A stretch of DNA of 48,487 nucleotides from Spirochaetales bacterium Spiro_09 (GTDB taxonomy: Bacteria; Spirochaetota; Spirochaetia; Treponematales; Treponemataceae), in the NCBI GenBank assembly GCA_001604385.1, contig LVBK01000024.1, forward strand, positions 1 to 48,487, given 5' to 3'. Below, in pieces: positions 5,413 to 45,387 of this stretch. The notes under the pieces were generated by a model. It was given only the letters and a program-made list of their open reading frames with translations. It searched no databases and had not been told where the DNA came from. A program made the position numbers and the translations under genes. Numbering within the stretch: the stretch's first letter is position 1; each line of letters begins with the position of its first letter.

Positions 5413-5442
5413 TTGAACAGGCAGTTCCTTACCTGGCATCAT
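5413..5442 (+). promoter_or_regulatory. promoter of the YeiW-like gene, leaderless layout
   Basis: TTGAAC (5413-5418), 18-bp spacer, CATCAT (5437-5442), then exactly six bases before the ATG at 5449. Transcription should start at or next to the start codon. Confidence 0.5.
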
Positions 5443-5448
5443 GGCAGT

Positions 5449-5712
5449 ATGGAATGTCGTCCCGGTTGTGCCGCCTGTTGTATAGCGATATCTATATCTT
5501 CCCCGATACCCGGCATGGAGGCCGGCAAGCCTGCCGGGGTCAGGTGTGTCAATCTGGATCAGCATAACCGGTGTACCATTCATAATTCGGCGGTATATCC
5601 GGCTGTCTGTAAAAGCCTGCGTCCCTCGCCGGAAATGTGCGGCACCGACAATGCCTATGCGTTCCGCTATCTGGAACTTCTGGAAGAATTGACGAGGGCA
5701 GATGGACCATAG
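5449..5712 (+). CDS. YeiW/YkgJ-type cysteine-cluster protein (UPF0153)
   Basis: A small 87-residue protein that begins MECRPGCAACC and carries SISSPIPGM, GKPAGVRCV, NRCTIH and PAVCKSLRPSPEMCG. This is the zinc/iron-chelating cysteine-cluster family, and the spacing recalls E. coli YeiW, which also begins directly at the first cysteine (recalled, not searched). The cysteines probably bind a metal or Fe-S cluster; the biological role of the family is unknown. A GTG at 5392 would give 19 extra residues, but the candidate promoter at 5413-5442 and the family N-terminus favour 5449. The SGNH hydrolase follows 140 bp downstream. Confidence 0.75.
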   Translation: MECRPGCAACCIAISISSPIPGMEAGKPAGVRCVNLDQHNRCTIHNSAVYPAVCKSLRPSPEMCGTDNAYAFRYLELLEELTRADGP

Positions 5713-5852
5713 GCGCAAGACAGGAACTGACTTTTTCTCCCCTGTTTTCAGGTGATTTGTCCCGGTTTTTATTGTACAATAATAAGAAGCTTTCACCGGG
5801 CGACTGGCGCCCGATGTCATGTTATGTTACGGCACAGCCGGAAGAGGTGCGT

Positions 5853-6482
5853 ATGAAACTTGAAGCAAAGATGAGAACCGATGAACATCATGTGGAGAAA
5901 CACAAGAGTTTTATTGAATACAAGGGAAAGGACAAGATCGAGATAGTGTTCCTTGGAGACTCGCTGACCCGTCGGTGGGAAGACAATCCCGCGCTGTGGC
6001 AGGAGTTCTTCGGCGGCATGAATGCGATAAACATGGGAGTAGGCGCCGATTGCCTTGAAAACATCCTGTGGCGCGTTGAAAACGGCGAGCTTGACGGCAT
6101 GAAACCCCGTTTGGTCCTCTTTTTGGGCGGTACGAACAATATTACCGCCGACACTCCCGAATACATTGCCTCCGGTGTGCTGCAGATTGCCGAAGCGGTC
6201 AAACAAAGGTGTCCGGGAAGCACTGTCGTGGTTCTCGGTCTGTATCCCCGGGCGGCCGATGACAATGGCAATGACTGTATCGCAAAAATCGCGCTCGTGA
6301 ATGACATGCTTGAAAAGGAATGTCCCGGTAGGGGCCTGGGCTATGAATACTATGGGAATGCCTTGCTTGCCCCTGACGGAAGCATTGACCGGACCATTAT
6401 GGAAGACGGTCTCCATCTGAATGCCGCCGGATACCGGATTGCGGGTCCGATCGTACAGGGCATAATCGCAAAATATTCCTGA
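5853..6482 (+). CDS. SGNH/GDSL-type hydrolase (1)
   Basis: A 209-residue hydrolase with the SGNH blocks in order: block I VFLGDSLTRRW with the nucleophile Ser (about residue 36), block II NMGVGAD with Gly, block III FLGGTNNI with Asn, and block V DGLHLNAAGY with the Asp-His pair. It resembles platelet-activating-factor acetylhydrolase-like and rhamnogalacturonan-acetylesterase-like enzymes that remove acyl or acetyl groups from lipids or sugars. No signal peptide is visible with this start, which is supported by GAAGAGG upstream of the ATG. TTGTCC (5757-5762) with TAATAA (5780-5785) is a weak promoter candidate. A second, distant SGNH hydrolase lies at 20712-21344. Confidence 0.85.
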   Translation: MKLEAKMRTDEHHVEKHKSFIEYKGKDKIEIVFLGDSLTRRWEDNPALWQEFFGGMNAINMGVGADCLENILWRVENGELDGMKPRLVLFLGGTNNITADTPEYIASGVLQIAEAVKQRCPGSTVVVLGLYPRAADDNGNDCIAKIALVNDMLEKECPGRGLGYEYYGNALLAPDGSIDRTIMEDGLHLNAAGYRIAGPIVQGIIAKYS

Positions 6483-6493
6483 GTGTCACACGT

Positions 6494-7324: not shown

Positions 7325-7349
7325 CGGGATGTATGCCCGGCCTGTGTGA

Positions 7350-7379
7350 TTGAAAGCCAACCCTTTTTCAGGGTATCTT
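7350..7379 (+). promoter_or_regulatory. prfC promoter, leaderless layout
   Basis: TTGAAA (7350-7355), 18-bp spacer, TATCTT (7374-7379), then seven bases to the ATG at 7387. No Shine-Dalgarno sequence is present. Confidence 0.5.
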
Positions 7380-7386
7380 CTTCTCC

Positions 7387-8988
7387 ATGACTGAATTGAT
7401 CCAGGAAATACACCGGCGGCTGACCTTTGCCATTATCTCGCATCCTGATGCGGGAAAAACGACTATTACCGAAAAATTGTTGCTCTTCGGCGGGGCTATT
7501 CATATTGCCGGCGCGGTAAAATCCGGGAAAACAAGCAGAACGGCCGTTTCCGATTTCATGAAGATGGAGCAGGAACGCGGTATCTCCATATCGACCTCTG
7601 TAATGGGCTTTGAGTATAAGGGCCGTAAGGTCAACATTCTCGATACCCCCGGACATGCCGATTTCTCCGAGGATACATACCGTGGTTTGTCGGCAGTCGA
7701 CAGCGCCCTGATGGTTATTGATTCGGTGAAGGGTGTCGAGGAACGAACCCGGCAGTTGTGCGTTGTGTGCCGCATGAGGGCCACGCCCATTACCACTTTC
7801 GTGAATAAGCTTGACCGTGAGGGTAAGGACCCTATGGAATTGCTTGACGAGATTGAGCGGGAACTGGCTGTTGAAGTACGGCCGGCAACCTGGCCGATCG
7901 GACAGGGAAAGCTCTTCAAGGGCGTGTACAACCTGCTCGACAACAAGCTCTATCTCTTTCGGCCGGGGGAAGACCAGCTTCCGGTAGATATTGTTGAAAT
8001 ACGCTCCATACAGGACCCTCTTCTGGACGAGAAGGTTGGTCCGTCGCTTGCCAGAAAGCTTCGGGAAGATGTCGACATGATCTCGGGCGTATATCCTCCC
8101 TTTGATCGTGATGCCTACATTGCCGGCAGGGAAACCCCGGTCTTTTTCGGTTCCGCTTTGAATAATTTCGGTGTACGCGAGCTTCTGGACAATCTTGTGA
8201 GCCTGGCTCCGTATCCGACGCCGAAAAAGGCGGAAGAGCGTGAGGTTCCTCCCGAGGAGCCGCGCTTTTCCGGTTTTGTGTTCAAGATACACGCCAACAT
8301 GAATCCGAAGCATCGTGACCGGATCGCCTTCCTGCGCATAGTCTCGGGTAAATTCGAGCGGAACAAGATGTATTGGCATGTGCGTTCCGGAAAAACCTTC
8401 CGTACCGCGAACCCCACTGCCTTCATGAGCCAGGACCGTGAAATTATCGATGAGGCCTGGCCCGGTGACATTATCGGTATACACGATACCGGTACGTTCA
8501 AGATCGGGGATACCCTGACGGAGGGAGAAAACATCAATTTTCAGGGGATTCCGAGTTTTGCTCCCCAAATTTTCAGAACAATCATGAACGCAGATCCCTT
8601 GAAGGAAAAGCAGTTTCACAAGGGTTTGAACCAGTTGGCCGAAGAGGGTGTTGTACAGATCTTTTCCAAGATACACCAGCCAAATGCCCGGGTTCTCGGC
8701 GTTGTCGGCCAACTTCAGGTCGAGGTACTGAAAAGCCGCCTGGAATACGAGTATAACGCTTCCTGTAAATATGAAAATATCGATGTCAGTATTGCCCACT
8801 GGATTACCAGCGATGACGAGAAAATTCTGAAAAACTTTGTCGACGCAAACTCCAGGAAGATTCTGGTAGATATTCGGGGTAATTATGTCTTTGTGTCGGA
8901 TTCTGAATGGAGTTTGAACCGGGTAAAGGATTTGAACCCTGCTATCCGGTTCTATTCGACATCCGAAATGGTGGATAAACGGGCATAG
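7387..8988 (+). CDS. prfC: peptide chain release factor 3 (RF3 GTPase)
   Basis: A 533-residue translational GTPase of normal RF3 length. G1 is SHPDAGKTTITE (about residues 19-30), the switch regions include MEQERGISISTSVM, G3 is DTPGHADFSEDTYR and G4 is TFVNKLDREGKDP. The RF3-specific C-terminal part has LNQLAEEGVVQIF and GVVGQLQVEVLKSRLEYEYN. RF3 uses GTP to release RF1/RF2 from the ribosome after peptide release and takes part in quality control. It appears monocistronic, with its own promoter, and ends six bases before the end of the convergent Zn-phospholipase-like gene. Confidence 0.96.
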   Translation: MTELIQEIHRRLTFAIISHPDAGKTTITEKLLLFGGAIHIAGAVKSGKTSRTAVSDFMKMEQERGISISTSVMGFEYKGRKVNILDTPGHADFSEDTYRGLSAVDSALMVIDSVKGVEERTRQLCVVCRMRATPITTFVNKLDREGKDPMELLDEIERELAVEVRPATWPIGQGKLFKGVYNLLDNKLYLFRPGEDQLPVDIVEIRSIQDPLLDEKVGPSLARKLREDVDMISGVYPPFDRDAYIAGRETPVFFGSALNNFGVRELLDNLVSLAPYPTPKKAEEREVPPEEPRFSGFVFKIHANMNPKHRDRIAFLRIVSGKFERNKMYWHVRSGKTFRTANPTAFMSQDREIIDEAWPGDIIGIHDTGTFKIGDTLTEGENINFQGIPSFAPQIFRTIMNADPLKEKQFHKGLNQLAEEGVVQIFSKIHQPNARVLGVVGQLQVEVLKSRLEYEYNASCKYENIDVSIAHWITSDDEKILKNFVDANSRKILVDIRGNYVFVSDSEWSLNRVKDLNPAIRFYSTSEMVDKRA

Positions 8989-8994
8989 TGGTTT

Positions 8995-9965: not shown

Positions 9966-11294
9966 TCAGTCCTCCCGTGCGGCTATCCGCGACGATTTGA
10001 CAAACAGAAGTGCGCCGGAGACAAACAGGACAAGAAGCGATACGACGCCAAAGCGCATTGTTCCCCCCGGAATCGGGCCGGTAACGGAAAGAACAACAAG
10101 GCTGATGCCTCCAACCAGGGCCGGTCCGAGTACCGAAGCGAACCGGCCGAAAATGGTGTAAAAACCGAAAAACTCGTTTGCCATATTTTTCGGGATAATC
10201 TTGCCAAACCATGACCTTGAAAGCGACTGGATTGCTCCCTGGGAGGTCGCGACCATCATCCCCAAGATCCAGAAGTGCCAAATTTCCCGGACAAACAGGG
10301 CTATTGTGCATACCATGCAGTAAATAACTATTGTTACCATCAACAGTGTCTTGGTAGTAAAGCGTTTAGAAAGCCAGGAAAAGAAAATGGCGCAGAAGAA
10401 GGCGACAACCTGTATCGCAAGCAGAATTGGCAGGAGGGTCGCTGTCGCGTTTTCAGGAGTAACCGCATCGATGGCATTCGTGGCAAAGGGGACTGCCATT
10501 GCGATAATGGTGTGCACCCCGTCGATATAGAGAAAGAAAGCGGCCAGAAACCAGGCAACGACGCGATAGGAACGGATATTTTTAATGGTATGCGCCAGTC
10601 TTTTGAAAGAGTTCTTTATGAAGGCGCTTTCCCGTTCGATGCCGTACTCCTGGTGAACGTTTTTAAGAAAGGGGATCGAGAAAACAAGCCACCAGAGTGC
10701 GGTCATCAGAAAGGTAATGCGGAAACCGGTGAATACATCGTAGGGAATCGCGAGCCTCCCGATTGTCAGAACGCCGTCCACGCAGAGTGAGGGAACCACC
10801 TGCAGGAGCACTATCGCAAGGATGAGGGGTATGGTTGAACCGCCTATGTATCCGAATGCGTAGCCAGTAGTGGAAACCTGGTCCATGCGCTCGTCACTGG
10901 TGACATCGACGATAAAGGAATCGTAGAAAATATTCGTTCCGGCATAGCCGATTGACGAAAGAACATAGGGAACAAGAACCATCCACCACAGGGCGGGATT
11001 TTCCGGATAGAATGCGATCAGGAAGGTACACAGAATGCCGACCGCGAAGAAAAAGAGGAAAAACTTTTTCTTGAAACCGCGATAATCGGCAATAGTACCC
11101 AGAATTGGCGAGAGTACAGCTACCGAGAGGCTTATCAGTGAAACAAGAATCCCGTAGAGGGATTCAGCACCGTGTATGCCGCGTGAGAGGATACCGTACA
11201 GCATGGGAAAAATAAAGGACGCGACAATGACGGTAAAGCAGGATTCTGCCCAGTCATAAAAAATGTAGGACCATTCTTTCTTTGTAAAGACCAT
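9966..11294 (-). CDS. MFS transporter, UMF1/Atg22-like
   Basis: A 442-residue integral membrane protein with about twelve transmembrane helices. The start WSYIFYDWAESCFTVIV matches the YDWANSAF signature of the UMF1 (vacuole effluxer Atg22-like) branch of the major facilitator superfamily. The cytoplasmic loop LGTIADYRGFKKK between helices 2 and 3 fits the MFS motif A position. Substrates of bacterial members are not known; amino-acid export is known for yeast Atg22. The gene leads a two-gene operon with the Zn-phospholipase-like protein. TATATT preceded by TGG lies seven bases before the ATG. Confidence 0.85.
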   Translation of the reverse strand: MVFTKKEWSYIFYDWAESCFTVIVASFIFPMLYGILSRGIHGAESLYGILVSLISLSVAVLSPILGTIADYRGFKKKFFLFFFAVGILCTFLIAFYPENPALWWMVLVPYVLSSIGYAGTNIFYDSFIVDVTSDERMDQVSTTGYAFGYIGGSTIPLILAIVLLQVVPSLCVDGVLTIGRLAIPYDVFTGFRITFLMTALWWLVFSIPFLKNVHQEYGIERESAFIKNSFKRLAHTIKNIRSYRVVAWFLAAFFLYIDGVHTIIAMAVPFATNAIDAVTPENATATLLPILLAIQVVAFFCAIFFSWLSKRFTTKTLLMVTIVIYCMVCTIALFVREIWHFWILGMMVATSQGAIQSLSRSWFGKIIPKNMANEFFGFYTIFGRFASVLGPALVGGISLVVLSVTGPIPGGTMRFGVVSLLVLFVSGALLFVKSSRIAARED

Positions 11295-11301: not shown

Positions 11302-11310
11302 AATATACCA
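11302..11310 (-). promoter_or_regulatory. extended -10 box of the UMF1-type MFS gene
   Basis: On the minus strand TGG-TATATT is followed by seven bases and the ATG at 11294. The TGn motif may compensate for the lack of a clear -35 box. Confidence 0.45.
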
Positions 11311-11389: not shown

Positions 11390-11395
11390 TACTAT
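11390..11395 (+). promoter_or_regulatory. -10 box of recQ, leaderless layout
   Basis: TACTAT is followed by six bases and the ATG at 11402. A -35 match (TTCCGG, 11367-11372, 17-bp spacer) is weak. Confidence 0.4.
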
Positions 11396-11401: not shown

Positions 11402-13018
11402 ATGCCCAGACTTGATACCGCCCGACAGGTCCTTTCCACCGTTTTTGGTCACCGTGAATTTCGTCCCCTGCAGGAAGAGGTAATCGGCTCGGTATTGGCC
11501 GGTAAAGACACGGTCGCCATAATGCCCACCGGCGGGGGTAAGTCGCTGTGCTATCAGGTACCTGCCCTGTTGTTTGACGGGCTGACTGTTGTCGTTTCGC
11601 CGCTTATTGCCCTGATGCAGGATCAGGTGTCCGCCCTCGAGCGGCTTGGGATCGACGCGGTGTTCCTGAACAGTTCACTGGACAGGGAAAGCTGGCGCGC
11701 TGCAGCCAGCAGGGTCAGCTCCGGTTCCGTCCGTCTGTTGTACGTCGCGCCGGAAAGCCTTGCCGGAGAGCGGGTCCTCGAGCTCCTGGACGCATGTACG
11801 GTATCCTGTCTGACGATAGATGAGGCTCATTGTATATCGGACTGGGGGCATGACTTCCGGCCCGAGTACCGCAGTCTTTCTGCGTTCCGCTCGCGGTTTT
11901 CTCCCGCGGTTACCCTTGCGCTGACCGCAACTGCCACGGCGCAGGTTCGTTCCGATATTGTCGCTTCGCTCAAACTGCACAAGCCGGTCATCTTTGTGTC
12001 CAGTTTCAACCGTCCGAATATTTATCTCTCTGTCAGTGCGAAAACCAAACCTGTTCACCAGGTGCTCGAATTTCTGGCCGAACGTCCGGGTCAGGCGGGC
12101 ATAATCTATTGTTTTTCCCGAAAACAGGTTGACGATCTGGTGAACGAGCTGACTGTCCGGAAATTTTCCGCAGTGCCCTACCATGCCGGTTTGAAAGACG
12201 ATGTCCGCATGCAAAACCAGGAAGCCTTTCTTGACGGGTCTGTGGATATTGTTGTCGCGACGGTGGCGTTCGGGATGGGGATCAACAAGAGCGATGTGCG
12301 TTTTGTCATTCATTTTGACTTGCCAAAAAGTCTTGAGCAGTATTATCAGGAAATCGGGCGGGCGGGCAGGGACGGAAAAGCTGCTACCGCCCTATTGCTG
12401 TATAGTTACGGGGATACGCGCAAGATAGCGTTTTTTCTGGAAGAAAAGTCGGAGCGGGAATCGAAAAAGGCGGTCATACACTTGAAGGCGATGACCGATT
12501 ACGCCTCGGCCCGATCCTGCCGGCGCAATCTGCTGTTGTCCTGGTTTGGCGAAACGCTCCAGCCGGTATCCCCGGTCGATACGCTCCTTCCGTGTTGCGA
12601 TATATGTACCCGTGGTGCAGTGGATGAAGTCGATGTAACCATTCCCGCACAAAAATTCATGTCCTGTATTGTCCGTACCGGTGAGCGTTATGGCACCGGT
12701 TATATTGCCGATATACTTCTTGGCTCCCGACAGGAACGGATTGTCGGGAACGGGCATCATAAACTTTCAACCTGGGGTATTGGACGGGATTTGAGTCGGG
12801 AGGACTGGTTCAGCCTTTGCGCCCTGTTGGTTGATGCAGGCTACATACGGAAAACGGGGGAGTATGGCGTGCTGGTCCTGACGCGCGATGGCCGGGATGC
12901 GCTTTCCGCCCGGGAAGTTATAGCCCTTCCCTTTGAAAAAAGTGCCGAGCCGCCAATAAGCCGCGCACGTCCCCGTTCTCTTCCCAAACGGAAAGTACGC
13001 AGAAAAAAAGAGCTCTAG
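11402..13018 (+). CDS. recQ: ATP-dependent DNA helicase RecQ
   Basis: A 538-residue superfamily 2 helicase, 3'-5', acting in recombination and replication-fork repair. The motif 0 region is FGHREFRPLQEEV; Walker A is MPTGGGKSLCYQ (Lys47), Walker B is DEAH (140-143), and motif VI is QEIGRAGRDG. The RecQ zinc module starts CRRNLL and ends PCCDIC, so two cysteines are adjacent rather than in the usual CxxCDxC spacing. An RQC winged-helix domain follows to about residue 500. The C-terminal HRDC domain of E. coli RecQ (609 residues) is missing and is replaced by a short Arg/Lys-rich tail. An ATG at 11348 would add 18 residues; 11402 is preferred for its position after TACTAT. Confidence 0.94.
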   Translation: MPRLDTARQVLSTVFGHREFRPLQEEVIGSVLAGKDTVAIMPTGGGKSLCYQVPALLFDGLTVVVSPLIALMQDQVSALERLGIDAVFLNSSLDRESWRAAASRVSSGSVRLLYVAPESLAGERVLELLDACTVSCLTIDEAHCISDWGHDFRPEYRSLSAFRSRFSPAVTLALTATATAQVRSDIVASLKLHKPVIFVSSFNRPNIYLSVSAKTKPVHQVLEFLAERPGQAGIIYCFSRKQVDDLVNELTVRKFSAVPYHAGLKDDVRMQNQEAFLDGSVDIVVATVAFGMGINKSDVRFVIHFDLPKSLEQYYQEIGRAGRDGKAATALLLYSYGDTRKIAFFLEEKSERESKKAVIHLKAMTDYASARSCRRNLLLSWFGETLQPVSPVDTLLPCCDICTRGAVDEVDVTIPAQKFMSCIVRTGERYGTGYIADILLGSRQERIVGNGHHKLSTWGIGRDLSREDWFSLCALLVDAGYIRKTGEYGVLVLTRDGRDALSAREVIALPFEKSAEPPISRARPRSLPKRKVRRKKEL

Positions 13019-13028: not shown

Positions 13029-13424
13029 TCAGTCTTTTTGGGTCTTTACAAAGAAATGCCTGGAGCGCGGACCGTCGAACTCGCAGAAATAGATTCCCTG
13101 CCAGGTTCCCAACAGCAGTTTGCCCTTGTTGACAATAACGGTAACGCTCGCGCCGATACAGCTTGCCTTGATATGGGCGGCGGAATTGCCTTCCGCGTGG
13201 CGGAATTCTCCCCGATCGGGGAAGGCCTTTTCCAGCGCGATGAGCATGTCGTGGACCACATCGGGATCCGCGTTTTCGTTTATGGTAATGGCGGCGGTTG
13301 TGTGGGGGCAAAATACTGTGCAGGTCCCATCCATTATACCGCTTTCCTGAACGGCTTCCTTCACCATTGCGGTAATATTGTGAAAGCCCTGGTGGCTTGT
13401 TGTCAGTCCGTATTCACTCAACAT
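13029..13424 (-). CDS. yjbQ: YjbQ/UPF0047 family protein
   Basis: A 131-residue protein matching the YjbQ family over its full length: CPHTTAAITINENADPDV, EGNSAAHIKAS and LGTWQGIYFCEFDGPR, whose His, Asn and Asp residues line the family's active pocket. E. coli YjbQ has a weak thiamine-phosphate synthase activity and the true role is not settled. The gene converges on recQ with a 10-bp gap. It is separated from nfnB upstream by a strong terminator and has its own extended -10 box, so it is transcribed alone. Confidence 0.92.
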   Translation of the reverse strand: MLSEYGLTTSHQGFHNITAMVKEAVQESGIMDGTCTVFCPHTTAAITINENADPDVVHDMLIALEKAFPDRGEFRHAEGNSAAHIKASCIGASVTVIVNKGKLLLGTWQGIYFCEFDGPRSRHFFVKTQKD

Positions 13425-13430: not shown

Positions 13431-13439
13431 ATCTTATCA
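13431..13439 (-). promoter_or_regulatory. extended -10 box of yjbQ
   Basis: On the minus strand TGA-TAAGAT is followed by six bases and the ATG at 13424; no Shine-Dalgarno sequence is present. Confidence 0.4.
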
Positions 13440-17844: not shown

Positions 17845-17873
17845 TTGACAATGGGCAGTGCGCCTCATATCAT
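17845..17873 (+). promoter_or_regulatory. putP promoter, leaderless layout
   Basis: A perfect -35 TTGACA (17845-17850), a 17-bp spacer and TATCAT (17868-17873) are followed by six bases and the ATG at 17880. The expected transcription start is the A of the start codon. Confidence 0.75.
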
Positions 17874-17879: not shown

Positions 17880-19334
17880 ATGTATTATATTCAATTTATC
17901 CTCTATCTGGTATTGATGTTGGTTATCGGCTTCATTTCGATGAAGAAAGCTCACAGTAACGAGCTCTTTTTAATCGGCGGCAGGACGCTCGGGCCGGTTG
18001 CAAGCGCGATCAGTGCCGGAGCCTCCGACATGTCGAGCTGGCTCCTGCTCGGACTTCCCGGAGCTGTTTTCGCAAGCGGCCTGGTTGAGGGGATCTGGAT
18101 TTCCCTTGGGCTGACGATCGGGGCATACCTGAACTGGCTGATAGTTGCCGGCCGTTTGCGCTCCCTGAGCGAACGGCTTAACTCGGTAACCCTGCCGTCG
18201 TTTTTGGCAAAGCGGTTCAACGATGAATCCGGCGTGCTGAAAATTACTTCAACCGTAGTTATTCTGATTTTCTTTACCCTCTACGTTGCCTCGGGCCTGA
18301 AGGGCGGCACCAAGCTGTTTGCCCATGCCTTCGGCGCGAGCGAGGAAGTCGCCATGACCATCACTACCCTGGTGGTGGTTTCCTATACCTTTTTGGGTGG
18401 ATACCTTGCCGTGTGCTGGACCGATCTTGTCCAGGGACTCCTGATGCTTGCCGCCCTGGCTTTTTGTCTCATATTGGGCCTGGTGGGCATCGGCGGCTCC
18501 GGCGTTGACATAGCGGCCATTAATCCCGCAGCCTTTAAGGTGTCCACCGGCTGGATCACCGCGGCTTCGCTCATGGCCTGGGGTTTCGGCTATTTCGGTC
18601 AGCCCCATATTCTGGCGCGGTTTATCGGTATCCGGGACGTACAATCGGTACCGCGTGCCCGGCGCGTCGGCATTATATGGATGATTCTGTGTCTGGTATG
18701 CGCGACGCTCATCGGAATTGTCGGTATTGGCTATGATGCCCTGCATCCCCTCGCGGGAGTAAGCGGGGCGGGCGGAGATCCCGAGCGCGTATTCCTCGCC
18801 CTGGCAACCACGCTCTTTCATCCGGTCTTCGCCGGTTTTGTTCTTGCCGCGGTTCTTGCGGCCGTCATGTCCACCGCCGATTCCCAGTTGCTCGTGTTGA
18901 CCTCTTCCCTGACCGAGGATATCCCCGCGGTACAGAAAATGGCGGACGCGAAAAAGAAATGGATTAGCCGTTTGGGCGTCGTGGGCTTTGCCATTCTTGC
19001 CTGGGTTATTGCGGCCAATGACCAGGGTTCTATCCTGGCGATGGTCGGCTATGCCTGGGGAGGCTTCGGCGCAGCCTTCGGCCCGGTGGTTATTCTTGCC
19101 CTGTGCTGGAGACGGACGACAAAGTGGGGGGCCTTTGCCGGTATGCTGAGCGGTGCCCTGGTCATCTTTATCGTGAAAAACTTTATCAAGATTCCCGGGG
19201 AATATTTTTATGAACTGATGCCCGGCTTTATCATTTCTTTCGGCGTTGTGGTGTTGGTCAGCCTGCTCACGTCTCCTCCGCCCGAAAGCGTTCTCTCTGA
19301 GTTTGACGGGTCAAATCAGGACGTGCGGTCGTAG
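17880..19334 (+). CDS. putP: sodium/proline symporter
   Basis: A 484-residue member of the sodium:solute symporter family with about 13 transmembrane helices. The PutP signature GGRTLGPVASAISAGASDMS followed by SWLLLGLPGAVF is present near residues 33-65, including the Asp (of SDMS) that is essential for Na+ coupling in E. coli PutP. Later blocks include WGFGYFGQPHILARFIG and AAVMSTADSQLLVLTSSL. It imports proline with Na+ as carbon/nitrogen source or osmolyte. The start is fixed by the helix-1 sequence and the abutting promoter; there is no Shine-Dalgarno sequence. The mechanosensitive channel follows after two bases, an association that fits osmotic adaptation. Confidence 0.93.
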   Translation: MYYIQFILYLVLMLVIGFISMKKAHSNELFLIGGRTLGPVASAISAGASDMSSWLLLGLPGAVFASGLVEGIWISLGLTIGAYLNWLIVAGRLRSLSERLNSVTLPSFLAKRFNDESGVLKITSTVVILIFFTLYVASGLKGGTKLFAHAFGASEEVAMTITTLVVVSYTFLGGYLAVCWTDLVQGLLMLAALAFCLILGLVGIGGSGVDIAAINPAAFKVSTGWITAASLMAWGFGYFGQPHILARFIGIRDVQSVPRARRVGIIWMILCLVCATLIGIVGIGYDALHPLAGVSGAGGDPERVFLALATTLFHPVFAGFVLAAVLAAVMSTADSQLLVLTSSLTEDIPAVQKMADAKKKWISRLGVVGFAILAWVIAANDQGSILAMVGYAWGGFGAAFGPVVILALCWRRTTKWGAFAGMLSGALVIFIVKNFIKIPGEYFYELMPGFIISFGVVVLVSLLTSPPPESVLSEFDGSNQDVRS

Positions 19335-20711: not shown

Positions 20712-21344
20712 CTACAGCAGTGATACCGCTTTCAGCCAGCAGTGTGCCATGGCTGCGTGGCCGGCCATTGTCGGGTGGCAGCCGTCGTATGTCCACATGA
20801 TGTCAGGGCGCCGGTGAAGCAAGTCGAGCTGCAGTTCCGCAGTCGGTACATAAATGGCCCGGTATTTGGCTGCAAGTTCGCGTACAATCTGGCCGCGTTC
20901 GGCAAGAAGTGTCGCCATCCGCTCATTGGTTGCATTTTCGATGGTTGTCGGGCTGCACAGGATCAGCTGCCTGACGCCGCCTTCAAGAGCCTGGTCAATG
21001 AGAGCGGTGCAATTTGTCCGGTACTCGTCGGGTCCGATGTACTTTTGCCCGTTCCATTCACCGGCAATACGCCATACGTCATTGACGCCGACCATGATCG
21101 AAAGCACGGTGGGTCTGAGGTCAATGCAGTCCTCCTCCCATCTGGCCAATAGCTCGGCACTGCGGTCCCCGCCTACGCCCCGATTAAGTATGGTTATGTT
21201 CAGGTCAGGTTGCAAAAGGGGAATAAGACCCGCCACGACCGAAACATATCCTTCCCCGAGGCCGTCCGCCGTTTCCCGGCGTCCACAATCGGTAATGCTG
21301 TCTCCCTGAAAGAGAATTCTGTCTCCGTTTTGTATGTTGTTCAT
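20712..21344 (-). CDS. SGNH/GDSL-type hydrolase (2)
   Basis: A 210-residue SGNH hydrolase with block I ILFQGDSITDCGR, block II LNRGVGGDR, block III IMVGVNDVW and block V DGCHPTMAGHAAMA, giving the Ser, Gly, Asn and Asp-His set. It resembles TesA/arylesterase and carbohydrate-esterase-like members that hydrolyse acyl or acetyl esters; the natural substrate is unknown. No signal peptide is visible. The protein is only distantly similar to the SGNH hydrolase at 5853-6482. TACACT sits six bases before the ATG and no Shine-Dalgarno sequence is seen. Confidence 0.85.
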   Translation of the reverse strand: MNNIQNGDRILFQGDSITDCGRRETADGLGEGYVSVVAGLIPLLQPDLNITILNRGVGGDRSAELLARWEEDCIDLRPTVLSIMVGVNDVWRIAGEWNGQKYIGPDEYRTNCTALIDQALEGGVRQLILCSPTTIENATNERMATLLAERGQIVRELAAKYRAIYVPTAELQLDLLHRRPDIMWTYDGCHPTMAGHAAMAHCWLKAVSLL

Positions 21345-21350: not shown

Positions 21351-21380
21351 AGTGTACAGGGTGATTCATTGACTTCGCAA
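21351..21380 (-). promoter_or_regulatory. promoter of SGNH hydrolase 2, leaderless layout
   Basis: On the minus strand TTGCGA (21375-21380), an 18-bp spacer and TACACT (21351-21356) are followed by six bases and the ATG at 21344. Confidence 0.5.
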
Positions 21381-26312: not shown

Positions 26313-26341
26313 AGTATACCAGCGTTTTTATCTTCCGTCAG
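26313..26341 (-). promoter_or_regulatory. glpQ promoter, leaderless layout
   Basis: On the minus strand CTGACG (26336-26341), a 17-bp spacer and TATACT (26313-26318) are followed by seven bases and the ATG at 26305. The -35 box overlaps the end of the upstream ferredoxin gene. Confidence 0.5.
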
Positions 26342-27075
26342 TCCAGGCGCTCGCCTTCTGTCGAGATTGTCACAATCTGCCAGGGCAGAAACTTTCCGCT
26401 TGCCTTGAGGGCTTCGGTTGCTGCATGGGCAAGGCCGCCGCAGCAGGGAACTTCCATACGGACTATTGTGACGCTTTTAATGTCATTTTCCGCGATAATG
26501 GCGGCTAATTTCTCCGTATAATCCCCGTTGTCAAGTTTTGGACATCCGATGACCGTGATCTTGTTGCGGATAAAGTCCTCGTGAAAATTCGCGTACGCAT
26601 AGGCTGCGCAATCGGCCGCAATGAGCAGATGCGCGCCGTCAAAGTAGGGCGCGTTTACCGGAACGAGTTTGAGCTGTACCGGCCACTGGCGAAGTTCCGA
26701 AGTACGTTCCGTATTGCTTCGAGGTGCATTTACGGGTGCCGCAGCCTTTTGTTCCGTACGCAGACTTTTTGCCGCACTACCGGGACATCCGCAGGAAACC
26801 GGGGCAAAGACGGGCTTGTGTATGGCCTGATTCTTTGCCTTCTCCATATTTTGCAGTACCGCTTCCTCGTCATAGGCCGCCGCTTCACGTTCTTCAAAGC
26901 TGATTGCTCCGGTGGGACAGACCGGGAGACAGTTCCCGAGTCCGTCGCAATAGTCGTCGCGGAGCAATGTTGCCTTGCCGTCTATCATGCCGATTGCGCC
27001 TTCATGGCATGCTTTGGCGCACAGGCCGCAACCGTTACACAGATCTTCATCGATCCTGATTATTTGTCGTATCAT
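26338..27075 (-). CDS. ferredoxin-domain protein, FrdX-like
   Basis: A 245-residue iron-sulfur protein. The first 60 residues bind two [4Fe-4S] clusters: CNGCGLCAKACHEGA and DYCDGLGNCLPVCPTGA. A linker with VSCGCPGS follows, then a second domain with HLLIAADCAAYAY, VIGCPKLDNGDY and VRMEVPCCGGLAHA, rich in cysteines that may hold another metal site. I recall this two-part protein as FrdX, often found in anaerobes beside hcp or a Crp/Fnr (HcpR-type) regulator and linked to nitrosative or redox stress; its reaction is unknown. The start at 27075 begins at the ferredoxin fold (MIRQIIRIDEDL) and lies six bases after TATAGT. The Crp/Fnr gene is divergent, 75 bp away. Confidence 0.8.
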   Translation of the reverse strand: MIRQIIRIDEDLCNGCGLCAKACHEGAIGMIDGKATLLRDDYCDGLGNCLPVCPTGAISFEEREAAAYDEEAVLQNMEKAKNQAIHKPVFAPVSCGCPGSAAKSLRTEQKAAAPVNAPRSNTERTSELRQWPVQLKLVPVNAPYFDGAHLLIAADCAAYAYANFHEDFIRNKITVIGCPKLDNGDYTEKLAAIIAENDIKSVTIVRMEVPCCGGLAHAATEALKASGKFLPWQIVTISTEGERLD

Positions 27076-27081: not shown

Positions 27082-27087
27082 ACTATA
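27082..27087 (-). promoter_or_regulatory. -10 box of the ferredoxin gene
   Basis: On the minus strand TATAGT is followed by six bases and the ATG at 27075. No -35 box is seen; instead the palindrome at 27110-27125 is centred about 42 bases upstream of the expected start, the position used by Crp/Fnr activators. Confidence 0.5.
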
Positions 27088-27150: not shown

Positions 27151-27801
27151 ATGATGATTCCCGGAAATTGTCCCCTGTTTTCAGGGATGACCGCCGATGA
27201 TACCGTTCATTTGCTGGAATGCCTGGACGGATCCCAAAAAAAATATCGCAAGGGTGACACAATTCTTCGCGAAGGATCCGAAGTGGATTCCATTGGACTG
27301 GTACTGGCAGGCTTTGTGCAGATTGTGCGCCTTGATTTTGACGGAAATCGCCTCATACAGGCAGGTATGGGCCCGGGTGCCATTTTTGCCGAAAGTTTTG
27401 TATTTGCCGGGATGCGCCGAGCCCCGGTAAGCGTTGTTGCGGGTGAAGATTCCATTGTGCTTTTTTTATCCTTTCAAAAAATGTTTCAACCCTGTGGGCG
27501 TATGTGTTCGTTTCATCAAAAACTGGTAGAGAACATGCTCAACCTGCTTGCGCGAAAAAACTTGCTGTTGTCGGGCAGGATGGATGTGGTTTCCAAACGA
27601 TCGATTCGTGAAAAGATAATCGCATATATCTCGCAGGAAGCACGGGCGCAACAGACAGATGTGCCCCTTGTTCCCTATAACCGACAGGAACTGGCAGATT
27701 ACCTGTGTGTCGACCGGAGCGCTCTTTCCCGTGAATTGGGTAACTTGAAGCGGGAAGGTGTGCTTTCTGTGGAAGGGAACCGGTTTCGTCTTTTTCATTG
27801 A
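27151..27801 (+). CDS. Crp/Fnr-family transcriptional regulator (HcpR-like)
   Basis: A 216-residue regulator with an N-terminal cyclic-nucleotide-binding-like barrel (residues 8-130; KYRKGDTILREGSEVDSIGL, GFVQIVRLDFDGNRLIQ, FAESFVFAG) and a C-terminal Crp helix-turn-helix (NRQELADYLCVDRSALSREL, followed by GNLKREG). The cAMP-contacting residues of E. coli Crp and the N-terminal Fnr cysteines are not evident, so the ligand is probably neither. Its place beside a FrdX-like ferredoxin suggests an HcpR-type NO/redox sensor; this is inference. Two consecutive ATGs (27151, 27154) could be the start and no Shine-Dalgarno sequence precedes them. Confidence 0.85.
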   Translation: MMIPGNCPLFSGMTADDTVHLLECLDGSQKKYRKGDTILREGSEVDSIGLVLAGFVQIVRLDFDGNRLIQAGMGPGAIFAESFVFAGMRRAPVSVVAGEDSIVLFLSFQKMFQPCGRMCSFHQKLVENMLNLLARKNLLLSGRMDVVSKRSIREKIIAYISQEARAQQTDVPLVPYNRQELADYLCVDRSALSRELGNLKREGVLSVEGNRFRLFH

Positions 27802-27826
27802 CAATTCAATAAACCAAATTTACTAT
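27798..27826 (+). promoter_or_regulatory. promoter of the GGDEF-EAL gene
   Basis: A perfect -35 TTGACA (27798-27803), which overlaps the stop codon of the regulator gene, a 17-bp spacer and TACTAT (27821-27826). The ATG at 27835 lies eight bases after the -10 box. Confidence 0.7.
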
Positions 27827-29688: not shown

Positions 29689-31267
29689 CCGCTTCCGCGC
29701 ATTTTTCGCCATCCATTGCCGAAGAAACAATGCCCCCCGCGTAGCCTGCGCCCTCTCCTGCGGGATAGAGCCTTTTGTAATGCATGCTCTCGAATGTCCC
29801 GGGATTTCGCACAATTCTGACCGGAGCGGAGGTCCGTGTTTCCGGGGCAATGAGCAGGGCTTCTCCGGTAATAAAACCGTGCATTCTGCTGTCAAAAAAC
29901 CGGAAACCTTCCTTCAAACGTTTTGTAACGTATTCCGGAAGCCATTGGTCAAGTCTCGATGAGACCACTCCGCCAGTGTAGGAGGTTTCAGGCAGACTGT
30001 CTGAAAGCCGTCCGGCAAGAAAGTCGGTAAGTCGCTGTGCCGGAGCACGCTGTCCGTCACCCTCCTGCTTCGCCTTCTGCTCTATCGCTTCCCGGAACCG
30101 GAGTCCTGCGCCCGCCTCTCCCCGTGTATCCTTCAGTCGGTATTCCTCCGGTATGTCTTCTTCCCGTACCTCGACCACGATAGCCGCGTTGGACCAGCGG
30201 GAATTACGTCCGGCGGCGGACATTCCGTTGACGACCAGCCCATCATTTGCCGTTGCGGCAGGAACAACAAAGCCGCCCGGACACATACAAAAGGAATACA
30301 CCCCGCGATCAGCGACCTGGGTGACCAGACGGTATTCGGCTGCCGGCAAGCGGTCAATTTCCCGCCGGCCATGATACTGAATACGGTCGATAAGCTGCCG
30401 TGGGTGTTCGCATCGAACCCCGATTGCAAAGGGTTTTGGCTCAAGCGGACAGGGGTCAAGCGACAGAAGCATATCGTACACGTCGTTTGCCGAATGCCCC
30501 GTTGCCAGAATGACTGCATCGGCCAATAGCTTGCTGTCGCTTTCGGCGTCCTGCGCGCGAACAGTGATTCCGTTAACCATACCCCGTTCAAGCAGCAAGC
30601 CGGTACAACGGCAGCCGAAATGGAACTCGCCCCCGAGGGAGGTGATTGTAGTTCGTATTGCGGTGATTATTGCAGGTAATTTTTCCGAACCGATGTGGGG
30701 ATGCGCGTCTGTCAGGATCGCGGGATCTGATCCATGATGGACCAGGATCGACAAGACCTTGCCGATATTGCCGCGCTTGTTGGACCGGGTATACAGTTTG
30801 CCGTCGGAAAACGTGCCCGCGCCCCCCTCTCCGAAGCAGTAATTCGAGTCGGTGTCCAGCACGCCGTCACGGCTTATTGCCGCGATATCCCGTTTTCTGC
30901 GCGCGCATTCGCGGCCCCGCTCGACAATGACGGGCGTGATGCCGTTCTCGAGAAGCCTGAGGGCGGCAAAGAGGCCCGCGGGCCCCGCCCCGACAATCAG
31001 AACGCGTTTGCGTGGGTCGGCTTTTTTCCAGACGGGAAGGTCGCCGGTGGAGGGGGTTTCCCCGTTTGAATAGATAGTCCAGGATTGCACTATGCGAACC
31101 CGTCCCTTTCTGGCATCGATTGACTTCTTTGCCAGAACGGGGGTAATCGTCTCGTTCGGGGATATGCGTATGCCCTTTTCTGCCAAAGCGGCTCGTATCT
31201 TGCGTTGTATCAGCGCTTCATCCGTCTCTTCGCCGGGCAGCAGGTGTAATTGTATGTTCGTTTTCAT
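29660..31267 (-). CDS. FAD-dependent dehydrogenase (COG2509 type)
   Basis: A 535-residue flavoprotein. After an N-terminal region of about 85 residues comes the FAD-binding Rossmann site VLIVGAGPAGLFAALRLLENG and then IVERG. Further segments are NYCFGEGGAGTFSDGKLYTRS, VILATGHSANDVYDMLLS, FAIGVRCEHPRQLID, CPGGFVVPAATA and, at the end, LYPAGEGAGYAGGIVSSAMDG. This is the conserved but uncharacterised COG2509 dehydrogenase family; substrate and electron partner are unknown. TATACT lies ten bases before the ATG and there is no clear ribosome site. Confidence 0.88.
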   Translation of the reverse strand: MKTNIQLHLLPGEETDEALIQRKIRAALAEKGIRISPNETITPVLAKKSIDARKGRVRIVQSWTIYSNGETPSTGDLPVWKKADPRKRVLIVGAGPAGLFAALRLLENGITPVIVERGRECARRKRDIAAISRDGVLDTDSNYCFGEGGAGTFSDGKLYTRSNKRGNIGKVLSILVHHGSDPAILTDAHPHIGSEKLPAIITAIRTTITSLGGEFHFGCRCTGLLLERGMVNGITVRAQDAESDSKLLADAVILATGHSANDVYDMLLSLDPCPLEPKPFAIGVRCEHPRQLIDRIQYHGRREIDRLPAAEYRLVTQVADRGVYSFCMCPGGFVVPAATANDGLVVNGMSAAGRNSRWSNAAIVVEVREEDIPEEYRLKDTRGEAGAGLRFREAIEQKAKQEGDGQRAPAQRLTDFLAGRLSDSLPETSYTGGVVSSRLDQWLPEYVTKRLKEGFRFFDSRMHGFITGEALLIAPETRTSAPVRIVRNPGTFESMHYKRLYPAGEGAGYAGGIVSSAMDGEKCAEAVSSLFPQIP

Positions 31268-31277: not shown

Positions 31278-31283
31278 AGTATA
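31278..31283 (-). promoter_or_regulatory. -10 box of the FAD dehydrogenase gene
   Basis: On the minus strand TATACT is followed by ten bases and the ATG at 31267; the -35 region is not convincing. The leader would be about three to four bases. Confidence 0.35.
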
Positions 31284-32876: not shown

Positions 32877-34049
32877 TTAGCGGGATCGGCGGCGGGAGCC
32901 CCTGCCCGAAACGATAATAAGTATTGTCATGATACCGATGGCCACCGCCGGGGTGAGCATGACCGCCTGTACGCCGGCCACGTTTTTTATCAGGCTGCCC
33001 GCGGGCATGGCCAGAAAGCTGCCCGCCGCCGCGGAAAGCATCATGAGGGTTGGAAACCGGTGCTTGATGTGTTCCGCGCGGTCGCTGCCAAAAATAAACA
33101 GGGCAGGAAAGAGCCCGGAGCAGAAAAGCCCGCAGACAAAGATGCCGACCGCGATCAAGCGGTTGTCGGTAAGTTGGCGCAAAGCCAGCAGCGATAGTAT
33201 GGCCAAAATACCGGAGCTGATGATGTATAATCGGGGCCGGATTCGCGAAATAAGCATGCTTTGCAAGAATCGTCCGATCAATACCGCTATCCAGAAGGTT
33301 GAAACCGCAGAACCCGCGAAAAGGACATCCTTGTTCAGCGCCTCCCGCAAATACACGGGCGTCCAGTACGTGATCGAGTATTCTGCCATGATAAAGCACA
33401 CAATTGCCGCGCTCACCATCCATAAGGGTGCATCAATCGTCCCGGAATCAGTATGGGTCGGGCCGCCCTCCGTGTTGAGCGAGTAAAGGTCTGAGTATCG
33501 GGCCCGGATGGTGACCAGCAAAAAAACGCAGACAACTGCGGCAGGCATCAGGTACGGACGGTTCCATGCATGGCCCTGTTTTAATATGAGCCCGGTTAAA
33601 AAGGGACTGGTGACACCGCCGACGCTGTAGAGAAAGTTGATCATCGAGATGTGAAATGCCTTTTGGGGACCGCAATAGAGGTCGACCAAAATCATGTTCG
33701 ATGCGGAGTAGACTACGCCGACAAGAATACCCGCAATAAAAATCAACACGGTGAAGGCTGCAATGTGACCGGTTATCAGAAACCCGGCAGATAGCGCGCA
33801 AAAAAGACCCGCGGCCAGGCGTAAGTAGAGACCCTTCGGAAAGGACTTCTTTCGTAATACGTGTCCGTTGCCGGATATACCCGCTACCCGGCCGATCATG
33901 AAAGCCGTAAACGATAAACCTGTCACCGCGGTGGTGGTTCCAAGCGCGGTGGCGAGGGAGTTCGTAACCGCCCCGCCTATGTTAATGAAGAAACCGCTTA
34001 GGAAAAAAAAGACATAGGCGGTCAGCGTTAGTAGCAGGGTATTGTGCAT
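32877..34049 (-). CDS. MFS transporter, TsgA/FucP-like
   Basis: A 390-residue membrane protein with about twelve hydrophobic helices. The start YVFFFLSGFFINIGGAVTNS and helix 11 (MLSAAAGSFLAMPAGSLI) recall the TsgA/FucP branch of the major facilitator superfamily, whose known members carry sugars by proton symport. The substrate cannot be read. It converges on the GH35-like gene (18-bp gap). The extended -10 TGG-TACAGT lies nine bases before the ATG and no Shine-Dalgarno sequence is present. Confidence 0.8.
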   Translation of the reverse strand: MHNTLLLTLTAYVFFFLSGFFINIGGAVTNSLATALGTTTAVTGLSFTAFMIGRVAGISGNGHVLRKKSFPKGLYLRLAAGLFCALSAGFLITGHIAAFTVLIFIAGILVGVVYSASNMILVDLYCGPQKAFHISMINFLYSVGGVTSPFLTGLILKQGHAWNRPYLMPAAVVCVFLLVTIRARYSDLYSLNTEGGPTHTDSGTIDAPLWMVSAAIVCFIMAEYSITYWTPVYLREALNKDVLFAGSAVSTFWIAVLIGRFLQSMLISRIRPRLYIISSGILAILSLLALRQLTDNRLIAVGIFVCGLFCSGLFPALFIFGSDRAEHIKHRFPTLMMLSAAAGSFLAMPAGSLIKNVAGVQAVMLTPAVAIGIMTILIIVSGRGSRRRSR

Positions 34050-34058: not shown

Positions 34059-34067
34059 ACTGTACCA
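34059..34067 (-). promoter_or_regulatory. extended -10 box of the TsgA-like MFS gene
   Basis: On the minus strand TGG-TACAGT is followed by nine bases and the ATG at 34049. Confidence 0.35.
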
Positions 34068-40798: not shown

Positions 40799-40853
40799 GG
40801 AAAAGTATAAAAAAAATAAGCGCGAGATATGGTCCAAACTTTCCTGCCTTTTA

Positions 40854-40883
40854 TTGACGGTATCAATTTACCGGCCGTATACT
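40854..40883 (+). promoter_or_regulatory. promoter of the YiiX-like / adenylate cyclase operon
   Basis: TTGACG (40854-40859), an 18-bp spacer and TATACT (40878-40883). The expected start near 40890 lies after the ATG at 40885, which supports the internal ATG at 40906 as the true start of the first gene. Confidence 0.6.
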
Positions 40884-40905
40884 GATGCGAAGGAAAACGA
40901 CAAAG

Positions 40906-43204: not shown

Positions 43205-43233
43205 GGTATACGCATTTCACCAGGAAGGAATAT

Positions 43234-43590: not shown

Positions 43591-43747
43591 GCTCTCGCTT
43601 TATTCTTTCCGCCAATAAGCGTATTTCTGCCTTTCTACGACATTATACGTACCCTCCACATGGTGCTTTTGATACACCCTTCGTATGGTTCCCCTCTGGC
43701 GGGTCTGCTACGTTTTCAGTATTACTTACGCTTTTATTGGAGGACGT

Positions 43748-44398
43748 ATGAAGAGATCTGTTACGGTGTTGGGTGTTGTTTTTTTGATTGCAACCTTACA
43801 CGTATCTGCCGCGCAAACGGCGCATGAGCGGGAGACTATTATTGATGGAGTATGGAAGGGTTTTTCCTTCGGAAGTTATGCCTCGGTCGGAACCGGGGTG
43901 GCCGCAAGCCTTGCCGGCGATTTTTACCCGGTTGTCATGGAACTTGCTGCCGGTTTCAGGATTCGCCCCTGGCTTGCGGTCGGAGCCTATACCTCGGCGA
44001 GCCAGCTTTCACCCTTCGATTTCGGCGGATTTCGGCCGGTCGTTTTGTCCCGCGCAAACGGGTATGGTATCGCCAGCGGTACTGAAGTAATACTGACGCC
44101 CTGGGCCGAAAAGTTTGTTCATCCCTTTGTGCGGATTGCGGCAGGAGGGAGAAGTGTCGGAACGCTGGTTGATGAGGACGGGACAGAAGGGTATGAGGCG
44201 GTGGTTGAGTACCGTTTTTTTCATGCAGCGCTTTCGCTTGGAGCAGAAGTGAATATCGGTGCCCATAGCTCCGTATTTGTCCGTTCAGGATGGCAGTTTA
44301 CCGGAAACAACCGAATTTTCGATCTTGATGAGGGCGAACTGTCCGGCGCAGAAATCGTGATAGGCGGGCGTTTTGTATGGAATACCCGGGTATGGTAG
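43748..44398 (+). CDS. secreted, outer-membrane-like protein of unknown function
   Basis: A 216-residue protein with a signal peptide (hydrophobic residues 6-18, cleavage likely after VSAA). The mature region alternates strands (SFGSYASVGTGVAASLAG, FRIRPWLAVGAYTSAS, FFHAALSLGAEVNIG, SVFVRSGWQFTG) and ends IVIGGRFVWNTRVW with a terminal aromatic residue, the pattern of a small outer-membrane beta-barrel. No named family is recognised. GGAGG four bases before the ATG fixes the start; a longer frame to 43685 is unlikely. The 157 bp before it hold no gene and no convincing promoter. Confidence 0.65.
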   Translation: MKRSVTVLGVVFLIATLHVSAAQTAHERETIIDGVWKGFSFGSYASVGTGVAASLAGDFYPVVMELAAGFRIRPWLAVGAYTSASQLSPFDFGGFRPVVLSRANGYGIASGTEVILTPWAEKFVHPFVRIAAGGRSVGTLVDEDGTEGYEAVVEYRFFHAALSLGAEVNIGAHSSVFVRSGWQFTGNNRIFDLDEGELSGAEIVIGGRFVWNTRVW

Positions 44399-44408
44399 GG
44401 TTCGGCGA

Positions 44409-44437
44409 CTGAAAGACTTCGCCAGGTCTGTTATACT
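44409..44437 (+). promoter_or_regulatory. promoter of LuxR regulator 3
   Basis: CTGAAA (44409-44414), a 17-bp spacer and an extended -10, TGT-TATACT (44432-44437), followed by eight bases and the ATG at 44446. Confidence 0.5.
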
Positions 44438-44445
44438 GGGATGTA

Positions 44446-45387
44446 ATGGAGCATGTCATTTTTGCCCTTTACATCCTGGTATTCTCGACGGGCTGTGCCG
44501 GTAGCGTAGCTTTTGCCGTCCTGTATTATCGTACACGGCAGGCTCCGGTTATTTACTTCGCGGTGACGCATGCCGCGCTCTTGTTGGCTTTGGGTCTAGT
44601 TGCACTGTACTTTTATGCGGGCAGCGTGTTGGGCCTTGATACAGGCGCATCCCGCCTTTTTTCGCTGGTTATTCCGTTAGTGTTATTGGTTCTCAATATT
44701 TTGATATATATCGGACTGTATCTGGCTGTCAGCAAGCTGCCTGACGGAAGCGGCTCTCTCCGGCTACTGAAACGGGTTTTTGGAATATTGACCGGTATTC
44801 TTGTCTGCCTCATGTGCGCCGAGGCACTATTGCATATAGCGGGCATGCGCGAAAGTTCACCAATTTTTGGCGGTATTATTTCGGTAACCGTCTATGTTCT
44901 GGTTGCCGCCGTGTTGCTCCTGTGCGCGTATCTCTCGGGCTCTGTCGGGAGTTCTTTCGAACCCCGTTCCTTCCGGTTCTTGCTGCGCGGCTTTTCTCTG
45001 TGTCTGTATGCCTTCGTTCCCCTCACGATTGCTGAGTACGCATTAAATACCGCGACAACAGTCCCCTGGAAACCCTTGTCGCTTGAATATTTGGTATTTT
45101 TGGCAATCAATTGTATTGCCATCATCTCGGCAGGAATATCGCTAGTGGAAAATCTGCCCGCCTCATCTGCTCCCCTGGCCGTATCCGGTGAAATTGTCGC
45201 GCGCTTTGGCTTGACTCCCCGTGAGATCGAAATGGTCATGATGATTCAGCGCGGCATGACCAATAAGGAAATAGCCTGGGAGCTGAACATTTCTCCCGCG
45301 ACCGTACGCACTCATATTTACAACCTGTTTCAAAAAGTTTCGGTGCAAAGTCGCATCGCGTTACTCAATGCGATTTTCCGGGAGTAG
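44446..45387 (+). CDS. membrane-anchored LuxR-type transcriptional regulator (3)
   Basis: A 313-residue protein of the same plan as the regulators at 3563-4501 and 4478-5368: about seven membrane helices (residues 1-235), then a LuxR helix-turn-helix (LTPREIEMVMMIQRGMTN, KEIAWELNISPATVRTHIYN). No receiver or PAS domain is present. It probably senses in the membrane and binds DNA directly. It converges on pdxT (35-bp gap) and has its own promoter with no Shine-Dalgarno sequence. Confidence 0.78.
   Translation: MEHVIFALYILVFSTGCAGSVAFAVLYYRTRQAPVIYFAVTHAALLLALGLVALYFYAGSVLGLDTGASRLFSLVIPLVLLVLNILIYIGLYLAVSKLPDGSGSLRLLKRVFGILTGILVCLMCAEALLHIAGMRESSPIFGGIISVTVYVLVAAVLLLCAYLSGSVGSSFEPRSFRFLLRGFSLCLYAFVPLTIAEYALNTATTVPWKPLSLEYLVFLAINCIAIISAGISLVENLPASSAPLAVSGEIVARFGLTPREIEMVMMIQRGMTNKEIAWELNISPATVRTHIYNLFQKVSVQSRIALLNAIFRE

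Follow-up and report, generated by a model that had tools for sequence, protein, structure and literature searches.

Background

Leaderless messages, whose 5' end lies at or beside the start codon, have already been described in spirochaetes. The lineage of Leptospira interrogans is aerobic. In this species, differential RNA sequencing (dRNA-seq) mapped leaderless transcripts, which the available part of the report terms common: in 430-450 genes the 5' end is no more than 10 bases from the start, and it falls exactly there in 184 genes at 30 degrees and in 170 genes at 37 degrees (PMC5243855). A survey of 953 genomes by Zheng and others, as far as its accessible text goes, predicts leaderless (TA-led) genes for 6 of the 18 spirochaete genomes, at an average of 3.9% (1.8-6.9), and gives averages of 19.2% for Actinobacteria and 39.4% for Deinococcus-Thermus (PMC3160421, 2011), while 21.6% of bacterial species are predicted to have leaderless transcription in the accessible portion of the GeneMarkS-2 work (PMC9581028). 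Here we describe gene starts that look leaderless in Spirochaetales bacterium Spiro_09, beginning with 13 starts in a stretch of 48,487 nucleotides on contig LVBK01000024.1, which is called the window below and to which all positions refer.

The first-pass annotation of the window had proposed that leaderless or near-leaderless promoters are the rule for first-of-operon genes, and that this is not known to have been described as a main mode in anaerobic spirochaete-like bacteria. The claim of novelty may hold for treponeme-like anaerobes, for which no description of leaderless starts, and no transcript map that reports them, was found in the open-licence literature, but it does not hold for spirochaetes at large, given the mapped and predicted cases in the accessible parts of the two reports above (PMC5243855, PMC3160421). 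Our own analysis makes it very probable that the genome uses two start modes, a Shine-Dalgarno majority and a leaderless-like group of about one fifth of the genes and one third of the first genes, in which a predicted promoter -10 element is set 6-7 bases before the ATG. The source organism is uncultured and appears to be treponeme-like, judging from prfC, whose closest named relatives are Spirochaetales and Treponema metagenome-assembled genomes (at most 86% identity); the closest named species is Brucepastera parasyntrophica (80%).

Position of the -10 hexamer relative to the start codon

The source genome has 2.72 Mb in 83 contigs and is 88% complete, the window being contig 23. The stretches read, 40 loci together with the window, amount to 683 kb or 25% of the genome, and a dicodon gene caller found 570 genes in them (92% coding); both the calling and the choice of starts were home-made, and for the tests of position the starts were picked by coding potential alone. 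Genes with an upstream neighbour on the opposite strand were regarded as first of a directon (152 in the sample) and genes within 30 bases of the upstream gene as operon-internal (220), while 179 genes lie more than 30 bases behind a gene on the same strand. The gap is the number of bases between the end of the -10 hexamer and the start codon. No 16S rRNA, the source of the anti-Shine-Dalgarno sequence, was found in this incomplete genome.

When gene starts are compared with shuffled and coding controls, as the first-pass annotation had suggested, TANNNT is enriched at gap 6-7. Of the 152 first-of-directon genes, 32 carry the hexamer at one of these two gaps, while the other adjacent offset pairs in the same genes have a mean of 6.4 and a maximum of 12. 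The number expected from 500 dinucleotide shuffles is 5.85 (maximum 13), and only 68 of 3,352 in-frame internal ATGs (2.0%) have TANNNT at these gaps. TANNNT occurs often between genes, and one may suspect that fitting cases were picked by chance, the more so as the list of 13 named starts omits seven window genes with an opposite-strand neighbour and a Shine-Dalgarno label; against these controls, such an explanation is hardly credible. Among the 220 operon-internal genes, TANNNT occurs 8 times at gap 6 and 4 times at gap 7, and Shine-Dalgarno 4-mers peak at gaps 6-8.

A mixture model with three classes (none, Shine-Dalgarno and -10), in which motif shapes and positions were left free, recovers two motifs: AGGAGG, for the most part with a gap of 4-8, and TATACT, concentrated at gaps 6 (0.35), 7 (0.23) and 8 (0.09). 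Its log-likelihood is 585 for the real upstream sequences and lies between -96 and -100 when these are simply shuffled (three runs), with the best positions elsewhere. The free model gives the Shine-Dalgarno class 0.69 and the -10 class 0.255 of 564 genes. With fixed shapes and gaps 5-9 only, the -10 class is commoner in first genes (0.313 of 152) than inside operons (0.074 of 220), with 0.230 of the 179 same-strand genes in between and 0.192 of all 564 genes (background equivalent 0.007-0.017).

These shares bear on whether leaderless starts are the rule. The signal itself is real, but 53% of the first genes in the sample fall in the Shine-Dalgarno class and 31% are leaderless-like, so that leaderless-like starts, with about 31% of first genes and about 19% of all, form a large minority and not the rule. 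The claim fails even within the window, since among its 16 called genes with an opposite-strand upstream neighbour, seven belong to the named list (11294, 11402, 17880, 21344, 27075, 27835 and 31267) and seven were labelled Shine-Dalgarno by the model (3285, 3563, 5853, 17568, 21444, 40735 and 40906, of which 5853 would leave this class if the gene at 5449 joined the gene set), and two are uncertain (5368 with gap 2 and 31365 with gap 10). First-of-operon status is only presumed for five other named genes (7387, 13424, 26305, 34049 and 44446), each of which lies 47-105 bases after a gene on the same strand.

Promoter character of the leaderless-like starts

For 79 high-confidence cases (32 first genes, 31 mid genes, 14 operon-internal and 2 at an edge), we looked for other marks of a promoter. 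A -35 element is enriched at the usual spacer: a box starting with TTG has spacer 17 in 20 cases and spacer 18 in 9 (together 29 of 79), while every other spacer from 8 to 29 has only 0-5. TG stands one base ahead of the -10 hexamer in 23 of the 79. The start codons are 76 ATG, 3 GTG and no TTG. A Shine-Dalgarno 4-mer is found in 1 of 79 cases, compared with 276 of 328 genes of the Shine-Dalgarno class and 273 of 3,352 internal ATGs, a contrast that is partly built into the classification. A pyrimidine is usually preferred directly before a transcription start, and at gap 7 one precedes the ATG in 24 of 26 cases versus 205 of 328 Shine-Dalgarno genes (p=0.001), as expected if transcription starts on the A.

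The hexamers could also be read as A/T-rich ribosome-binding signals without Shine-Dalgarno character, or S1-type signals as in Bacteroidetes, rather than promoters. AT-rich biases at about -20 to -10 do occur in several phyla as possible S1 sites, according to the available part of one report (PMC5397173). The TTG boxes at spacer 17-18 and the TG before the hexamer speak against such a signal, and so does the promoter-like distribution of the class, which takes 31% of first genes and 7% of operon-internal ones; the Bacteroidetes type, an AT-rich site without a promoter partner and also inside operons, is not what we found. We regard this alternative as quite unlikely and prefer the promoter reading.

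The 13 named starts in the window

The first-pass annotation had placed a -10 hexamer 6-10 bases before each of the 13 ATGs. TANNNT is present at 12 of them, with a gap of 6 at 11402, 13424, 17880, 21344 and 27075, of 7 at 7387, 11294 and 26305, of 8 at 27835 and 44446, of 9 at 34049 and of 10 at 31267; eight of the 12 are thus at gap 6-7. The start at 5449 has only CATCAT (gap 6). The stated lack of Shine-Dalgarno sites was borne out, as none of the 13 has GGAG, GAGG or AGGA, the 4-mers scored here, in its last 18 bases, and the promoters quoted for putP, prfC and the GGDEF-EAL gene are all three correct in the sequence.

On the forward strand, putP (TIGR02121 PutP) has TTGACA at 17845-17850, spacer 17, TATCAT at 17868-17873 and, after gap 6, ATG at 17880. 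The corresponding elements of prfC (TIGR00503 prfC) are TTGAAA at 7350-7355, spacer 18, TATCTT at 7374-7379, gap 7 and ATG at 7387. The GGDEF-EAL gene, which has matches to EAL phosphodiesterases, carries TTGACA at 27798-27803, spacer 17, TACTAT at 27821-27826, gap 8 and ATG at 27835. In recQ (RecQ family), TACTAT at 11390-11395 precedes the ATG at 11402 by 6 bases, and a LuxR-type helix-turn-helix gene has TATACT at 44432-44437, gap 8 and ATG at 44446. The poorest -10 and the weakest case belong to the CxxCxxCC gene (TTGAAC at 5413-5418, spacer 18, CATCAT at 5437-5442, gap 6, ATG at 5449). This gene is missing from the called set; its product matches the CxxCxxCC domain PF03692 above cut-off, and the view of 5449 as a non-gene was dropped after this match.

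On the reverse strand, an MFS/Atg22-like transporter gene has TATATT at 11302-11307, gap 7 and ATG at 11294. It forms a divergent pair with recQ, in which both starts look leaderless and 107 bases lie between the two ATGs. The -10 of yjbQ is weak (TAAGAT at 13431-13436, gap 6, ATG at 13424, posterior 0.76). Other hexamers are TACACT at 21351-21356 for a GDSL lipase gene (gap 6, ATG at 21344), TATACT at 26313-26318 for a glycerophosphodiesterase-like gene (gap 7, ATG at 26305) and TATAGT at 27082-27087 for a 4Fe-4S protein gene (gap 6, ATG at 27075). Two genes look near-leaderless: a flavoprotein-like gene with TATACT at 31278-31283, gap 10 and ATG at 31267, where a second TANNNT stands at gap 8, and an MFS (TsgA-like) gene with TACAGT at 34059-34064, gap 9 and ATG at 34049. 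Elsewhere in the window, the membrane inorganic pyrophosphatase gene (PF03030, 34936-37107) has a clear Shine-Dalgarno start.

Conservation in orthologues

Loci orthologous to four of the named genes were taken from 40 relatives, and of 30 loci for each gene, 16 were scored for prfC, 28 for recQ, 18 for yjbQ and 15 for putP; the unscored loci are lower-scoring and mostly paralogues by identity. Several in-frame starts were tried per locus, so a single match outside the genus is weak. For prfC, TANNNT with gap 6-8 before the ATG and without a Shine-Dalgarno 4-mer is found in 10 of 11 scored loci of the genus, that of the own genome included (one more is cut off), although one of the ten, from genome G306, shows AGGA once the motif window is one base wider. 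The flanking sequence varies among these loci and the gap moves only among 6, 7 and 8. Outside the genus the pattern appears in 1 of 4. In 32 prfC loci of named spirochaetes, a set that shares some genomes with the 40 relatives, the box stands at gaps 5-9 in 18 of 27 scorable loci (five lack a start at the aligned residue), and there are 19 matches over the 5 offsets of gaps 5-9 versus 12 over 16 other offsets.

The N-termini of recQ orthologues differ by several residues, and the starts used in the genus are at the position of the own genome's start or 1-7 residues upstream. Six of 8 scored genus loci show the pattern with the box 6-7 bases before the start used, one of them also with a Shine-Dalgarno 4-mer, and two more are cut off. 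Since the starts shift yet keep the box, the -10 element follows the moved ATG. Outside the genus, 9 of 18 have the pattern, one with both signals. For putP, the pattern is found in 3 of 6 scored genus loci (that of the own genome and 2 of 5 others; one more is cut off) and in none of 8 outside the genus, where 7 have Shine-Dalgarno sites and 1 has neither. The 11 yjbQ loci of the genus comprise that of the own genome with the pattern, 1 with both signals, 6 with Shine-Dalgarno sites and 3 with neither, and the 7 outside comprise 5 with Shine-Dalgarno sites, 1 with the pattern and 1 with both; in total, the 17 other scored yjbQ orthologues divide into 11 Shine-Dalgarno, 3 neither, 2 both and 1 leaderless pattern.

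Orthologues also bear on the idea that the promoters are real and the true starts lie downstream, behind an ordinary Shine-Dalgarno leader. All starts are computational, and the gene caller itself favoured 11348 over 11402 for recQ and 27904 over 27835 for the GGDEF-EAL gene. However, the first 60 bases from each of the 13 named ATGs contain no in-frame start with a Shine-Dalgarno 4-mer ahead of it, and the prfC start used corresponds to query residue 1 in 14 of 15 scored loci with the box-start gap kept in 11 of 15, which makes downstream starts improbable in our view.

The pattern in other genomes

We counted TTGAC-N17..19-TANNNT-N6..7-ATG in 296 genomes, with a control gap of 12-13 in the same genomes. 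The own genome has 45 matches at gap 6-7 and 8 at gap 12-13. For families of the class (118 rows), the corresponding counts are 1,874 vs 601 in f1 (49 genomes), 435 vs 107 in f3, 53 vs 2 in f8, 83 vs 14 in f9 and 74 vs 15 in f10, while the excess is near-absent in f6 (246 vs 198; 30 genomes, p=0.013), a family that appears to be Borreliaceae. Ten Alphaproteobacteria used as a control gave 43 vs 20; at this ratio of 2.15, ratios near 2 are not specific, which undercuts phylum-wide ratios as a specific test. The ratio is exceeded in 14 of 16 families of the class (not in f6 and f15) and in only 10 of 38 families among the 178 rows outside it (total 5,981 vs 3,093), where f25, f32, f34, f35, f37, f38, f42, f43, f47, f49 and f53 show no significant excess. 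The pattern seems to recur in most families of the class and hardly in f6, and the evidence outside the class is mixed. Three genomes (G138, G147 and G163) have unusually many promoter-ATG matches, 182, 163 and 178, about twice the next highest (89 in G027).

Gene-level shares were estimated with motif shapes fixed from the own genome and positions left free, a procedure that is not independent for the own genome; it replaced the free mixture model, which had settled on a spurious T-rich motif when applied to the small sample from G296. First genes in the -10 class at gaps 5-9 (background equivalent in brackets) make up 0.165 of 48 (0.016) in G311 of the same genus, 0.243 of 70 (0.018) in G297 (by contig coordinates the same genome as G307, own genus), 0.172 of 28 (0.042) in Brucepastera, where the position peak is weak (gap 7: 0.20), 0.142 of 44 (0.020) in G200, 0.403 of 18 (0.097) in G138, 0.373 of 54 (0.040) in G130 and 0.158 of 38 (0.061) in G163. 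In the eight genomes outside f6, the own one included, the class has 0.082-0.216 of all genes and about 14-40% of first genes. Counts with starts chosen by coding potential only are small in other genomes, and G200 shows no excess in them (1, 1 and 0 at gaps 6, 7 and 8 vs 1.13 per offset). For G101 of f6 (30% GC, 907 kb contig), the share is 0.049 of 56 (0.043), and -10-like positions peak at gaps 18-20 instead of 6-7, a distance that has space for a Shine-Dalgarno leader and suggests that these leaders are very short.

Discussion

The leaderless or near-leaderless interpretation is sound in kind and was overstated in extent. It explains the data best because of the sharp peak at gap 6-7, the -35 element at the right spacer in more than a third of cases, the loss of Shine-Dalgarno sites, the near-exclusive use of ATG and the spacing kept in relatives. 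What is seen in the DNA is a promoter-like sequence at a fixed distance from the start codon, no Shine-Dalgarno motif, and a geometry kept in relatives; from these we infer the sigma factor, the 5' end and the route of ribosome entry. Most genes, chiefly operon-internal ones, have a Shine-Dalgarno site. About a fifth of all genes, and about a third of those at the head of a transcription unit, would use a promoter resembling that of a housekeeping sigma factor, with a gap of 6-7 and sometimes 8-10 bases between its -10 and the ATG. RNA polymerase would then start either at the A of this codon or just upstream, by one to a few bases, and the ribosome would bind the leaderless mRNA directly at its 5' AUG. 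In other bacteria, leaderless entry is by the 70S ribosome or dependent on initiation factor 2 (IF2).

Several observations weigh against this interpretation or limit it. Gene calling and start choice are our own, and without the model's bias first genes show a smaller excess (TANNNT at gaps 6-8 in 37 of 152 vs 9.2 expected). The class share depends on the model, and shuffled sequences also give a weight of 0.31-0.36 to a diffuse second motif, so that the evidence is the position peak and not the weight. There is no TTG at spacer 17-18 in 50 of the 79 cases. At gap 6 no pyrimidine preference is seen before the ATG (26 of 39), and the pyrimidine at -1, which holds at gap 7 and fails at gap 6, was given up as a general test. 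Among putP and yjbQ orthologues, a Shine-Dalgarno start is frequent instead. Gaps of 8-10 could mean short leaders rather than true leaderless mRNA.

Tentatively, leaderless initiation may be ancient in the class, and perhaps in the spirochaete phylum as a whole, and nearly lost in Borreliaceae (f6, one genome sampled), with orthologues switching modes (putP, yjbQ) and the recQ promoter following a moving start; we give it somewhat less than even weight, as only 10 of 38 outside families exceed the Alphaproteobacteria ratio. In such genomes, starts may be placed wrongly by gene finders that are geared to Shine-Dalgarno sites, and start codons can be used to locate promoters. Family f6, set against most families of the class, offers a natural comparison for what a ribosome needs in order to accept leaderless mRNA.

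Mycobacterial leaderless genes frequently start with GTG, and the starts described here differ in this respect (76 of 79 ATG, 3 GTG). As in this genome, leaderless transcription in Actinobacteria and Deinococcus is found in mixed genomes with leaderless first genes. L. interrogans belongs to the same phylum but to a distant lineage; the available part of its dRNA-seq report gives sigma-54 sites and no general promoter motif (PMC5243855), whereas the DNA here shows a clear -10 motif at a clear distance from the ATG. The TA-led genes of the 2011 survey carry, in its accessible text, the same signal, a TA-like box some 10 bases upstream of the start, and are likewise mixed with Shine-Dalgarno genes (PMC3160421). 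By a different method, the share of about 19% here is near the survey average for Actinobacteria (19.2%), below that for Deinococcus-Thermus (39.4%) and above the spirochaete range of 1.8-6.9% given there. A treponeme-like lineage would thus join the heavy users of leaderless starts, earlier mainly Actinobacteria and Deinococcus-Thermus in the accessible part of that survey (PMC3160421). Leaderless starts in this genome look like a richer instance of a known mode, now extended to a lineage in which it was considered rare, and they look commoner than the survey found for spirochaetes.

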